Of a stretch of DNA of 64,000 nucleotides, positions 15,504-58,745 are shown piece by piece. Position numbers and translations under genes: made by a program. The stretch lies in assembly GCF_003382285.1 (NCBI RefSeq), contig NZ_QTJR01000002.1, positions 124,001 to 188,000 of the forward strand, read 5' to 3'. Position 1 is the stretch's first letter, and the number at the start of each line of letters is the position of its first letter. The notes under the pieces are model-generated. The model searched no databases. It was not told where the DNA came from and saw nothing but the letters and a program-made list of their open reading frames with translations. Source of the DNA: Lysobacter soli (GTDB taxonomy: Bacteria; Pseudomonadota; Gammaproteobacteria; Xanthomonadales; Xanthomonadaceae).

Positions 15504-16481
15504 GTGACCGTGCCGCGCCATCGCCGCCTCCGCGTCATTTCCACCGCACTGCTCGCGCTGCTGCTCCTGGCGGCGGCGCTTCTCTGGCACAACCCCTACG
15601 CGATCATCAGTGGCGACTTCGCCCGCCAGCGCATCGCCGCTGGCCTGTCGAAAGCCAGCGTGCAGATCGGCGAAGACCATTGGGTCTACGCCTACAACGA
15701 CGAAGCGCCGCGCAATGCGCCCACCGTCGTAATGCTGCACGGCTTCACAGGCAGCAAGGAAAACTGGTTTCCGCTGGCGCGCCGCTTGCGTGAGCGTTAC
15801 CGCGTCGTCGTGCCCGACCTTCCCGGCTGGGGCGAATCGAATCGCATCGACGACGCGAACTACGGTTTCCTCGCGCAGAGCGAGCGCGTCGCGCATTTTC
15901 TCCAGGCCGTATCGCCGGACGAACCCGTCGTGCTGCTCGGCCATTCGATGGGCGGCGGCATCGCCGCGCTGACCGCCGCGCGGCATCCCGATCGCGTCGC
16001 GCGCGTGGCGTTGATCGACGCGGCGGGCGTGCGTTTCCGCGACAACCGCTTCGGCATCGACGTGCTCGCCGGAAGGAATCCATTCGCCGTGCACGATGAA
16101 GCATCGCTGCAACGCTATCTCGACACGGTGTTCTTCGACGATGTCGCGAAGCCGACGATTCCCTGGCCGGCAGACCGCGTCTACATCGCGCGCCGAACGC
16201 AGGACGCTGCATTCGAACAGGCTGTGCTCGATCGCATCGGTCGCAGCGACGAGCGCTTCCTGCCAGGCGGTGACGCCGTGCGCATCCGCCAGCCGGCGCT
16301 GCTGCTATGGTGCCGCCAGGACGCGGTGATCGACGCGAGCGCGCTCGCGCTGTACGCGCAGCGCATCCCGCAGGCGCAGCGCGTCATGCTGGAAGGCTGC
16401 GGCCACATGTCGATACTGGAAAAGCCCGACGCGGTCGCGAACGCCGTCGTCGAACTGATCGAACGAGGAAGGCAACGATGA
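15504..16481 (+). CDS. Alpha/beta-fold hydrolase, membrane-anchored
   Basis: A 325-residue hydrolase with an N-terminal membrane segment at about residues 12-28 (ISTALLALLLLAAALLW), so it is probably tethered to the inner membrane facing the periplasm. The oxyanion strand MLHGFTGSKENW, the nucleophile elbow GHSMGG with Ser148, and a late histidine (EGCGHMSILEKP) define the family; the acid is probably Asp in CRQDAVID. It starts with GTG (15504; a second GTG at 15510). Lipase or esterase activity is likely but the substrate is unknown. Its stop codon overlaps the next gene's start (ATGA). Confidence 0.87.
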   Translation: MTVPRHRRLRVISTALLALLLLAAALLWHNPYAIISGDFARQRIAAGLSKASVQIGEDHWVYAYNDEAPRNAPTVVMLHGFTGSKENWFPLARRLRERYRVVVPDLPGWGESNRIDDANYGFLAQSERVAHFLQAVSPDEPVVLLGHSMGGGIAALTAARHPDRVARVALIDAAGVRFRDNRFGIDVLAGRNPFAVHDEASLQRYLDTVFFDDVAKPTIPWPADRVYIARRTQDAAFEQAVLDRIGRSDERFLPGGDAVRIRQPALLLWCRQDAVIDASALALYAQRIPQAQRVMLEGCGHMSILEKPDAVANAVVELIERGRQR

Positions 16482-16537
16482 AACATGCCGCAATGAAACG
16501 CGCTGCAATCAAGCACGCTGCAATCAAGCGCGCCGCA
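16478..16537 (+). repeat. 15-bp tandem repeat, four copies, inside a signal peptide
   Basis: Four units of 15 bp of the form ATSAARCRYGCYGCA encode M/I-K-H/R-A-A in the start region of the lipoprotein gene. The unit length keeps the reading frame, so gain or loss of a unit would change only the length of the signal peptide's basic region. Confidence 0.8.
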
Positions 16538-17248
16538 ATCAGATGCTCCACCGTCGTGCTCGCAGGCGCGCTCGCCGCGTGCCAGCCGGCGAGCGATCCG
16601 AAGGCCGAAGCCGCCTCGCAGGCGGACGCGCAGGAGCAGGCCGCCGACGAAATGGCCAAGGCGTTCGAGGCCGAATACGGCAAGCAGAACTGGGAGCTCG
16701 CACGCGCGCACGGCGATGTGCTCGCGGCCATGTATCCGAACAGTGCGGCGTTCGGTCGCATCGAGATGCGCTACAACGAAGTGCGGGAAAAGGCCGCGCA
16801 GGCGCGCGAGCAGCGCCGCACCGCCGCGTTGTGGACGTACCAGACGCAACCGGTAGAGAAGGGCGAGCAGGTATCGGCGTCGATCTACGCGAAGGATCCC
16901 GTCGACACCGACGGCAGCGGTCCGCGCCCGGTGCAGCTGATCTTCCGCGATCGCCCCGACTGGGGCCGCAGCAGCTACCTCGTGCTGGAGAAGGGCGATT
17001 TCGACTGCTACGGCGGCTGCAAGGTGAAGCTGAAGGTAGACGATGCCGAGCCCAAGCGCGTGGACGCGAGCCGCCCGAAAACCGACGAGGCCATCGCGAT
17101 GTTCATCGAGGACGAGAAGATGCTGTGGAAGACGGTGAAGGCCGCGAAGGTCATCGCCATCGAATTCCCGGTGAAGGCCGGCGGCACGCGCACCGCGGTA
17201 TTCGAGGTGGGCGGGCTGGATGCTTCGAAGATGCCGAAGTGGAATTGA
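16478..17248 (+). CDS. Putative lipoprotein, hypothetical
   Basis: A 256-residue protein coupled to the hydrolase gene by an ATGA overlap. The N-terminus is a lipoprotein signal with lipobox GALAAC, but its basic region is unusually long because it consists of four 5-residue units (M/I-K-H/R-A-A). After a helical region rich in Ala and Gln the C-terminal half is probably beta-rich, with FDCYGGCKVKLKVDD. No known family is recognised. The coupling suggests it acts with the hydrolase in the periplasm. Confidence 0.72.
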   Translation: MKHAAMKRAAIKHAAIKRAAIRCSTVVLAGALAACQPASDPKAEAASQADAQEQAADEMAKAFEAEYGKQNWELARAHGDVLAAMYPNSAAFGRIEMRYNEVREKAAQAREQRRTAALWTYQTQPVEKGEQVSASIYAKDPVDTDGSGPRPVQLIFRDRPDWGRSSYLVLEKGDFDCYGGCKVKLKVDDAEPKRVDASRPKTDEAIAMFIEDEKMLWKTVKAAKVIAIEFPVKAGGTRTAVFEVGGLDASKMPKWN

Positions 17249-56445: not shown

Positions 56446-56874
56446 ATGGACGAACTGATCACCACGCTCGTCACCGTCGCCTTCATGGCCGTCGCCCTGT
56501 TTGCGGCGCGGGCCCATAGTCGAAAGGCGAGGGACGAGGTGATGCGCAGCTTCAACGCGCAGGCGTTCGACACGCCCGTTGGGCGCGTCACGGGCGAAGC
56601 CCTGAAGGTCGTCAAGATCAGCAGGCAGCCGATGCAGCTCCGGGGTGACGACCTCTCCACGCTGGGGCAACAAGACCAGCCCTCCGATGCCTTCCTCTAC
56701 TGCGTCGGGCCCGGCCCGTCGTACTTCGTTGCCATCGCGATCGCGCAGACCGGGATCGGCGCGGTGTCGGTGAAGTGGGTCGTCCGGCCGCTCACCGAGG
56801 AACGCATGCGAGGCGCGCTGGTGGGCGATCGCAAGGCGACTGCGCTGGCGTTCGGTCGCGCGACCGAGGCGTAG
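56446..56874 (+). CDS. Membrane-anchored hypothetical protein
   Basis: A 142-residue protein with an N-terminal membrane helix (residues 3-20, ELITTLVTVAFMAVALFAA) and a soluble domain of mixed strands and helices (PSDAFLYCVGPGPSYFVAIAIA, SVKWVVRPLTEERM). It starts 17 bp after the cold-shock fusion gene and may share its transcript. No family recognised. Confidence 0.65.
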   Translation: MDELITTLVTVAFMAVALFAARAHSRKARDEVMRSFNAQAFDTPVGRVTGEALKVVKISRQPMQLRGDDLSTLGQQDQPSDAFLYCVGPGPSYFVAIAIAQTGIGAVSVKWVVRPLTEERMRGALVGDRKATALAFGRATEA

Positions 56875-56921
56875 TCGTCGTCCCCTGTGGCGGCTCCCTC
56901 AAGCCGCGTCAGTGCCGGAGG

Positions 56922-57194
56922 CCGGCGCGCGAGTGATGAACACTGGAACGCGAGGCAAATTGGCTGGCGCGCCAGTGTTTGGGACTGGCGTTCGAGGCTC
57001 GGGAACTCGCGCGCCAGTAAATTTGCCTCGTGCGCCAGTGTCGGAGCCTGGCGCGCCAGGCAAAAACACTGGCGCGTCAGGCTCGAAGACTCGCGCGCCA
57101 GGCAAAATCACTCGTGCGCCACGTTCAAAGACTGGCGCACGAGTCTTTGGAACTGGCGCGTCACGCTTCAGCACTGGGCGCTGCGCCACGGCTC
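56922..57194. repeat. Thirteen 21-bp tandem units with a 12-bp palindrome
   Basis: Units begin at 56922, 56943, 56964 and every 21 bp to 57174, with no indel. Each has a 12-bp box close to CTGGCGCGCCAG, a perfect palindrome at 56964 and 57048, with variants CTCGCGCGCCAG and CTCGTGCGCCAG, followed by a variable 9-bp spacer (for example TGTTTGGGA, TAAATTTGC, GCAAAAACA). The outer units are degenerate. Read as protein, it gives heptapeptide repeats in several frames, none with a convincing start. Confidence 0.9.
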
Positions 57195-57340
57195 GACGTC
57201 CGGCTGTACAGGTTGCGTGCCCATCCCGCGCATCACGAATGTGAGACGCCGCTACCGTTCGCGACTTCGTCGCATTGATCGCGCTCTACGCGAGGAAGAA
57301 CACTCGCCGCCGGAGCCTGAGAACTCCGTACGAAGCGGTA

Positions 57341-57366
57341 ACCCACCTCCGTCAAGGTGGGTTTTT
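57341..57366 (+). terminator. Rho-independent terminator of an unidentified transcript
   Basis: ACCCACCT (57341-57348) with AGGTGGGT (57355-57362), then a T-run to 57366. No plus-strand gene ends within 460 bp upstream, so a small RNA or the array transcript may end here. Confidence 0.8.
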
Positions 57367-57492
57367 GTGCCCAGAACAGCGCGGGCGCAAACTCGACGCA
57401 GTCGCTCTGCGTCGGGAGGGCGGCAGCCATACAACACCCGAAAGGGAAAAGCTGTACGGCCGTTCTTCGTACGGTTTCTTAGCCTCCCGACA

Positions 57493-57517
57493 CCCCTGCG
57501 GCATTCCGCCGCAGGGG
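57493..57517 (+). promoter_or_regulatory. Leader hairpin before the XAC0095-like gene
   Basis: CCCCTGCGGC (57493-57502) with GCCGCAGGGG (57508-57517), about ten bases before AAAGGAG, the ribosome site of the next gene. It could affect its translation. Confidence 0.5.
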
Positions 57518-57540
57518 CACCGCAGTCAAAGGAGCGACTC

Positions 57541-57810
57541 ATGCCAACGAAGTCCCGTCCGGCGCCGGCCCGGACCCTCTGCTACGTCATCAGCGACCCC
57601 GCGCGCGACATCGTGTCGCGCACCCGCGACCAGCTGTCGCTACTCGCCCGCCTCACCGCCGCCCGCGTCCGCCACGACGACGCGGAACTCGAAATGCCCC
57701 AGCCCACGCTCTTCCACGTCCTGCAGACCCTGTGCAACGACCTGGATCACGCACTGCGCGACATGAAACTCCGCTGGCCGACCGGCGAGTCACCGCCGGA
57801 GCGGACGTAA
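57541..57810 (+). CDS. Small XAC0095-like family protein
   Basis: An 89-residue protein. The central part (YVISDPARDIVSRTRDQLSL, LARLTAARVR) resembles the XAC0095 family of small xanthomonad proteins, which have a short beta hairpin followed by an R-x-Q-L-x-L-L-A helix. A good ribosome site (AAAGGAG) precedes the ATG. Function of the family is unknown. Assignment is from memory of the pattern and is tentative. Confidence 0.65.
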   Translation: MPTKSRPAPARTLCYVISDPARDIVSRTRDQLSLLARLTAARVRHDDAELEMPQPTLFHVLQTLCNDLDHALRDMKLRWPTGESPPERT

Positions 57811-57893
57811 TCCGGCTATGCCGCGCACCGGCCTGCAGACGGTGCGCCGGCCAACATGCGGCGCAGACGTCGGCACGGAAGCCTGCGGATGCT

Positions 57894-57922
57894 AACGTCC
57901 GCTTTCGACCCAAAGCGGACAT
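57894..57922. repeat. TGTCCGCTT hairpin repeat A
   Basis: AACGTCCGCTT-TCGACCC-AAAGCGGACATT, immediately before the first orphan gene. First of the set A (here), B (58407-58494), C (58759-58842), D (59361-59386). Confidence 0.85.
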
Positions 57923-57968
57923 TGGCGTCGGACCAAACTGGTCATCTAATCAATGGTGGGCGTCAGGC

Positions 57969-58361
57969 ATGAGCATCGTGGATGAGATTGGGCGGCGTCT
58001 CGGCGTTCTAGCTTCACGCGCCGCACAGGATCGGTACATGGTGAATGCGACGTCAGATCAATACCTCCTCCCGGTAGAGGCCATCAATGATGCGCAGGAC
58101 GTGATCCGCGCACTCAGTGGTTCCGGTCCCATCTCTGCGCTTGAGGGTATGGAGTCAAAAGCCAGGGAAGCAGTGCAGAAGTTTGCGCTTGCTTGGCGGT
58201 CAGAAGAGAACCAGATTGACGCCATGCTCGAGCTGCCGTGGGATGAATTGGTCCTGCGCAATCAGCACTGGCACGCGCTTCGGGGAGCCGCACAGCTGTG
58301 CCTCGTCGAGATTGGGTTTGATCTGGCTCAGTGGGAGCGAGACGAAAGCTATGTGGCTTGA
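57969..58361 (+). CDS. Orphan hypothetical protein, cassette-like gene 1
   Basis: A 130-residue acidic, helical, probably cytosolic protein (DEIGRRLGVLASRAAQDRY, EAVQKFALAWRSEENQ, LEIGFDLAQWERDE-like end). Less GC-rich than core genes. The ATG at 57969 lies beyond hairpin repeat A; earlier in-frame codons run through the repeat and are not used. Flanked by repeats A and B. No family recognised; an immunity-type protein is one possibility. Confidence 0.65.
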   Translation: MSIVDEIGRRLGVLASRAAQDRYMVNATSDQYLLPVEAINDAQDVIRALSGSGPISALEGMESKAREAVQKFALAWRSEENQIDAMLELPWDELVLRNQHWHALRGAAQLCLVEIGFDLAQWERDESYVA

Positions 58362-58406
58362 AACCTCGATCAAGCGGAATCAAACCTCCTCATCGCACGG
58401 CCCATG

Positions 58407-58494
58407 AATGTCCGCTTCTGGCCGATAGCGGACGTTCGACCGGGACGCCCGGCAGCCGGGCTGCTAATGTCCGCTTTCGACCCGAAGCGGACAT
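58407..58494. repeat. Composite TGTCCGCTT repeat B (two hairpins)
   Basis: Hairpin 1: ATGTCCGCT-TCTGGCCGAT-AGCGGACGT (58408-58435). Hairpin 2: AATGTCCGCTT-TCGACCCG-AAGCGGACAT (58466-58494). The spacer of about 30 bases contains a CCCGGCAGCCGGG palindrome. Confidence 0.88.
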
Positions 58495-58520
58495 CGGGCC
58501 GAAGTCCTGGGAGCTGCGCC

Positions 58521-58745
58521 ATGGAAGATGGTGAAGTACTTACGAATTCGTTTCACGTTGAATTCGACGAGGCCACAAACTCATTCCTGATCTACACCAT
58601 CCATGAGGGAGACAAGGCAAGGTGGCCGATCAGAATTTCGCTCTCAACGCTTATGTCTATGGAACGGCTTGAAGCGGAGGCCTTTCTTGGCTCACGCCTA
58701 CTTCTCCTAGTGCCAAGCGCTCGGCGAGCCATTTACGATGCCTAG
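58521..58745 (+). CDS. Orphan hypothetical protein, cassette-like gene 2
   Basis: A 74-residue protein (MEDGEVLTNSFHVEFDEATN, SLSTLMSMERLEAEAFLGSR) that looks like two strands and helices in a soluble fold. It is AT-richer than the surroundings. The ATG at 58521 lies after repeat B; the longer frame translates the repeat itself. It is flanked by repeats B and C. No family recognised. Confidence 0.6.
   Translation: MEDGEVLTNSFHVEFDEATNSFLIYTIHEGDKARWPIRISLSTLMSMERLEAEAFLGSRLLLLVPSARRAIYDA

Follow-up and report, generated by a model that had tools for sequence, protein, structure and literature searches.

Toward the end of the window, i.e., the 64-kb stretch of Lysobacter soli DNA analyzed here, a tandem array of short dyad-symmetric units is located between a protein-coding gene and the small RNA sRNA-Xcc1, which is followed by a gene for a small protein of the XAC0095 family (Table 1). 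The stop codon of the upstream gene lies 47 bp 5' of the array, and the XAC0095-family gene starts 350 bp beyond the array end. Throughout the text, G000 refers to the genome holding the window, the other G numbers to other genomes, and L numbers to array loci.

Table 1. Features at the array locus (positions within the window)
Feature	Position	Strand	Remarks
Upstream gene, 142 aa	56446..56874	+	codon-usage gene call; without Pfam match
Degenerate in-register unit preceding the array	56901..56921	.	8/12 matches
Array of 12 clear 21-bp units	56922..57173	.	12-bp dyad box near CTSGCGCGCSAG plus 9-bp spacer
Claimed unit 13	57174..57194	.	6/12 matches, decayed at most
sRNA-Xcc1	57411..57499	+	RF02221; downstream neighbor
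XAC0095-family small protein gene	57541..57810	+	NF047335.1

From 56922 through 57153 a new unit starts every 21 bp with zero indels, and the two-helical-turn register that had been proposed in the preliminary description was thus borne out for 12 units. The thirteenth unit counted there is unconvincing, as it scores no higher than the next in-register position (57195, also 6/12 against CTSGCGCGCSAG). Four units match CTSGCGCGCSAG at 12 of 12 positions, four at 11, and four at 10, and the array contains two exact copies of CTGGCGCGCCAG (56964 and 57048). The box is rightly described as a 12-bp dyad element, but many copies are imperfect palindromes because positions 3 and 10 combine G or C freely, all combinations being found. 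Similarly, the 9-bp spacers are variable, as had been stated, but they are not random: a profile of 164 spacers from 16 arrays has K-S and S-M flanks and an A/T-rich middle. Matches of at least 9/12 to CTSGCGCGCSAG start at 485 positions in the whole window (~0.0076 per base, the array's 12 included), and 12 of them in strict register can thus not be due to chance. Single boxes are no commoner than expected, since 97 boxes with at most two mismatches were counted in the window vs 102 in shuffles. The unusual feature of the array is the strict register only; the single box is common in GC-rich DNA. Elsewhere in the window, a gene-free 15-bp repeat (AAACACGCCGCAATC) is present in four copies at 16481-16541.

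The array is not alone. A two-box pattern matched 16 of 39 genomes (G000 included) and revealed further arrays in the same genome on contigs C1, C2, C14, and C22. Among the matches listed, those forming arrays come from G000, G009, G003, and G021, and the other ones are isolated and probably coding. With the sequence model R1, which represents this first type, 16 genomes out of 297 from the family, representing 7 of 54 genera, gave matches at E<=1e-6; the window array, from which R1 was partly built, reaches up to 62.7 bits among the matches listed. A second type (21/42-bp arrays, box GCTCSGNNNNCSGAGC plus 5 bp) was found by lag scans at the orthologous locus of G004 and G011, with weaker 21/42-bp arrays farther along that locus in G007 and G001. 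At E<=1e-4, the corresponding model R2 had matches in 9 of 12 genomes from the genus, including G000, where second-type arrays occupy at least six further places. A third sequence type (L176:6807-7065) was encountered in an unselected 400-kb sample of G000. The genome thus harbors at least 12 arrays (at least 5 + 6 + 1) of three sequence types at separate places, which does not support the single special partition, origin, or silencing site that had been suggested.

This search of related genomes, which the preliminary description had called for, revealed further arrays in the Lysobacteraceae and allowed copy number, spacers, and neighbors to be compared. An array followed by sRNA-Xcc1 is present in G000, G003, G004, and G011, and twice in G009 (L042 and L043), and the XAC0095-family gene behind both was confirmed in G000, G003, G011, and at L043. 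The window locus carries the first type in G000, G009, and G003 and the second type in G004 and G011. Arrays from different loci of one genome align only partly, with ~76-84% identity (16 loci compared); the exception is a block of ~1 kb common to L042 and L043 (84% identity), which contains the array, sRNA-Xcc1, and the small gene. No description of such arrays was among the papers listed in searches of an open-access library. The window array is a member of a dispersed, apparently non-coding family of tandem dyad-symmetric intergenic arrays with a unit spacing of 21 (sometimes 22) bp. Palindromic intergenic repeats as such are a known kind of element; what is new here is their tandem arrangement in helical register.

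The arrays examined are intergenic. Using gene calls from our own codon-usage script instead of a standard gene finder, 49 of 60 arrays could be placed between two genes at distances of at most 800 bp (27 tandem, 11 convergent, and 11 divergent pairs), after leaving out four arrays without two flanking genes and seven with a neighbor more than 800 bp away. In a G000 sample, the background of gaps measuring 50 bp or more comprises 156 tandem, 31 convergent, and 51 divergent ones. Between tandem genes the stop codon is the nearer side in 22 of 27 cases, and the median distances are 64 bp to a stop and 170 bp to a start. Promoter avoidance alone may suffice to explain this nearness to stops; for comparison, only three REPs could be placed in the same way. 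The two named neighbors are an asd-like semialdehyde dehydrogenase gene (L036) and the gene for TrpF (L044), and at these two sites all 12 genomes of the genus were compared. Of the sites behind the asd-like gene, that of G000 holds an array and that of G002 a decayed one (below the scan threshold but visibly homologous), and 6 of the 10 genomes without an array (G001, G003, G004, G008, G009, and G011) have, judged by eye, a GC-rich inverted repeat shortly downstream of the stop. In G000 the array sits between the stop and such an inverted repeat. Behind trpF, only G009 of the 12 genomes has an array. Array sites are thus gained lineage by lineage, and this scattered presence again speaks against one special locus.

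Changes in length between close relatives were also observed. At the window locus, G004 and G011 differ by one whole 42-bp unit and several substitutions, and at a second locus by a 7-bp gap and several substitutions. The contrast drawn earlier with an ordinary slipped minisatellite was therefore too sharp: like bacterial minisatellites (VNTR), the arrays consist of head-to-tail units whose number changes between relatives, although their dyad-symmetric units, the symmetric variation of their half-sites, and the occurrence of several types at about one period set them apart. A neutral or selfish minisatellite family, in which palindromic units slip and are tolerated wherever no promoter is harmed, is hardly less probable than the reading preferred below. 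In such a family the symmetry may itself aid expansion as slipped strands fold back. The whole-unit difference between G004 and G011, the runs of identical 42-bp copies in L194 and L199, where the lag match is 1.0, the patchy presence at the two sites (1/12 and 2/12 genomes, one copy decayed), the several sequence types, and the nearness to stop codons all agree with it.

With respect to spacing, the 241 box-center steps counted in 33 first-type arrays measure 21 bp in 201 cases, 22 bp in 33, 20 bp in 5, and another length in 2. Some boxes are 14 bp long, and the step is then 22 bp in 17 of 17 cases, which weakens the notion of a constant center spacing and indicates that the spacer length is what is kept. 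In one G004 array the register is broken by a 7-bp gap. Whether the period is a wider preference was surveyed in gene-free periodic stretches of the window and of 400-kb samples from G000, G011, and G126. The survey yielded 31 periodic stretches, the window array among them, and 0 in block-shuffled sequence; those with periods of 12, 15, or 18 bp may be missed genes. When the window array is excluded, the leading period is 21, 22, 43, 63, or 65 bp in 8 of 30 stretches (the 63-bp case having two copies only), some of them with unrelated sequences. Two of the eight, from G126, carry quite different palindromes (TCCGGACATATCGGGCCATATGTCCGGA and ATATGTCCGGACACAT). This excess is weak (P ~0.04 against evenly spread periods, the period class having been named after the data were seen), but the minisatellite explanation does not by itself account for it. 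The small control from other families (three genomes, 400 kb in all) yielded four periodic stretches, and in one of them 42 bp is the leading period. Long gene-free stretches worth mentioning are the arrays L269:12371-12828 and L266:19204-19570 in G126, whose 43- and 65-bp periods are built from palindromic steps of 21-22 bp, and L281:32-815 in G026, from another family, with a period of ~57-61 bp.

The symmetry of the units deserves closer attention. Across 434 boxes from 31 arrays, the left half and the reverse-complemented right half have a nearly identical base profile. By itself this proves little because the boxes were picked by a symmetric consensus and both orientations were pooled, which makes the pooled profile look symmetric and slightly lowers covariation. 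The stronger result is that covariation of the dyad letters is missing in the same 434 boxes: z is -0.81 inside the box, -2.16 over the spacer, -3.41 between neighboring boxes, -0.31 inside the spacer, and -1.74 for the stem when G-U pairs are admitted. Such a symmetric profile lacking covariation is the pattern of half-site recognition and not of a hairpin. Furthermore, the mean unit was symmetric in a column-permutation test with p<=0.05 in 48 of 60 arrays and p<=0.01 in 30 of 60, including the unselected L176. The test is not clean, as the control of stretches with a 21-bp lag taken as coding gave p<=0.05 in 4 of 7 (p<=0.01 in 0 of 7), and most of the 60 arrays were found by similarity to two models that are symmetric because they were built from both strands; the exceptions are L062, L064, L067, and L068, found through the lag scan of one locus, and L176. 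With these selection effects (symmetric consensus and pooled orientations) borne in mind, the arrays do present dyad half-sites in helical register. Their boxes are more conserved than their spacers, as had been proposed, and the two halves of a box vary independently, as dimer binding would predict. The minisatellite explanation by itself leaves symmetric half-sites without covariation unaccounted for, given that fold-back should favor paired letters.

The same data bear on the distinctly unlikely possibility that the arrays are RNA elements of 3' untranslated regions, i.e., rows of hairpins that stabilize or end transcripts. Their position mostly behind stop codons would suit this role, and the window array folds far more stably than its dinucleotide shuffles (z -9.72 and -10.06). 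Among 12 of the 60 arrays folded on both strands, the mean z was 0.09 vs unit-order permutations and only -0.51 vs column shuffles, the folds thus being no better than the former and hardly better than the latter. Moreover, pair 3-10 is Watson-Crick in only 196 of 434 boxes, and no terminator-like site was reported in 56800-57600. The missing covariation and the folding hardly above column shuffles thus argue against hairpins, which were set aside despite the strong fold, and fit half-site recognition on double-stranded DNA by a dimeric protein.

Species also differ in their half-site letters, and they do so in concert across unlinked loci. In the first-type arrays that were retrieved, half-site position 3 is T in 47 of 74 half-sites of G003 (3 arrays) and 43 of 62 of G194 (3 arrays) vs 0 of 92 in G000 (5 arrays) and 1 of 264 in G009 (12 arrays), where it is G or C in 92/92 and 263/264, respectively. 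At half-site position 1, G makes up 50 and 71% in the two arrays of G126. General CpG decay does not explain the change from CTCG to CTTG, as the central CGCG is retained, and the G003 arrays are hardly recent copies of each other since their spacers, compared by eye, differ. The minisatellite explanation does not by itself account for letters that are common to unlinked loci in arrays unlike recent copies. G021 holds both letter forms, and therefore the differences may also reflect which subfamily a species carries.

As 21 bp correspond to seven codons, heptapeptide (leucine-zipper-like) repeats of a protein had to be considered as well. The box reads Leu-Ala-Arg-Gln/Glu on either strand, position 3 being the wobble base of Leu, and in 58 of 60 arrays one or more frames are free of stops. 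In total, 175 of 360 frames are open compared with a mean of 47 in letter shuffles, an excess that is partly built in because such shuffles destroy the repeat. The window array itself is traversed by a GTG-started open frame (56887-57810) that continues into the XAC0095-family gene, so that a non-repeat part, which the earlier remark had denied to every frame, is present in this one. Against coding stand the frame-shifting 22-bp steps (21 of 185 counted) and the behavior of orthologous arrays, which have no common frame. With respect to the downstream gene, the boxes hold one frame in G000 and G003, but in G009 they run through frames 0, 1, and 2. At the other four array-sRNA-gene loci checked, the frame of the small gene is interrupted, with 5 stops inside the array in L043, 3 in L042, 2 in L048, and 7 in L068. 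The orthologs compared thus give no sign of the conserved translated frame that had been named as a refutation. The codon-usage caller placed no gene inside any of 40 arrays; with a retrained caller, gene calls extended over 351 bp of L049 and over 31, 23, and 5 bp of L194, L135, and L129, respectively. Coding is therefore very unlikely, and the non-coding nature assumed at the outset holds as far as testable. Farther on, open reading frames at 57732-58534 of the window encode peptides like NVRFRPKADI and MSAFDPKRT, which we take to be spurious translations of a dispersed repeat.

Several known repeat systems resemble the arrays in part. REP and BIME elements are, according to PMC3733652, intergenic, palindromic, dispersed, and sometimes clustered, and roles in supercoiling, termination, and mRNA stability are supposed for them. 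The arrays share the first three properties with these RAYT-associated elements, but they are tandem 21-bp units, and their boxes show no stem covariation. A GTAG or CGTC tag is absent from the consensus box and spacer profiles of the first type. At L043 and L048, the loci inspected for it, a RAYT gene lies near the array. True REPs (CCCGGGTGCG...GCTACG) do exist in these genomes with a sequence other than that of the arrays, and an origin of the arrays from them was rejected because only 10 of 60 arrays have a REP core at a distance of up to 200 bp. The surroundings of L067, the window locus of G004, contain numerous REP cores as well as tandemly arrayed 121-bp units that carry REPs.

The geometry of a 12-nt repeat with a 9-nt spacer is also what brought guide arrays of the TIGR-Tas kind into consideration. 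According to PMC12045711, TIGR arrays combine repeats of 8-12 nt with 9-nt spacers and UG and CCA motifs, so that both lengths agree and the TGG...CCA of the commonest box is reminiscent of the motifs. These letters are not kept, as position 3 may be T or C, and the spacers, despite their 9 nt, are not unique but recur and are homogenized (e.g., in L132). The Nop domain (PF01798) was not matched in any of the 9 genomes searched, where distant Tas forms could escape, while 4 of 14 control genomes were positive, all of them archaea. Considering also the at least 12 arrays in one genome, we regard a guide function as highly improbable and set it aside.

Iterons and parS/parC-type arrays are phased dimer-binding sites at one or few functional loci. 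The arrays described here would share the phased dimer sites with them, but are found at many loci and are lineage-specific. We consider it possible, with a probability of roughly 40%, that they form a dispersed family bound in register by a putative dimeric protein. Each half-site would be read by one subunit of this DNA-binding protein, and the two-turn spacing would align all dimers of an array along a single face of the helix, which may favor cooperative binding. The phased dimers could then form a compact intergenic block acting as a boundary, be it a transcriptional roadblock, a topological anchor, or an insulator. Such a role has also been postulated for BIMEs. The preference for 21-22 bp in unselected samples, including stretches with unrelated sequences, points weakly in this direction. 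Against protein binding speak the single boxes at chance level and the variation of the boxes between arrays and sequence types, the lineage-specific presence with decay in G002, and the interrupted register in G004. The conservation of spacer length over center spacing, the 11 of 49 placed arrays between divergent genes, and the possible subfamily origin of the letter differences likewise weigh against it. An extension of the dimer-bound reading, which we find rather unlikely, is that geometry is conserved and not sequence: dyads about two turns apart, realized by several sequences, would then constitute a chromosomal platform of a new kind. It would serve one or several rapidly evolving dimeric proteins, each co-evolving with its half-sites at the various loci of a species.

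On either reading, protein binding or a neutral repeat, the arrays deserve masking in genome annotation because open frames cross them by accident. If they are bound by proteins, the Lysobacteraceae would provide a naturally occurring set of helically phased platforms whose half-sites are species-specific, and the co-evolution of a DNA-binding protein and its sites could be traced directly in this set. If they are neutral, they would represent a class of repeats whose period and symmetry come from the mechanics of mutation rather than from selection.
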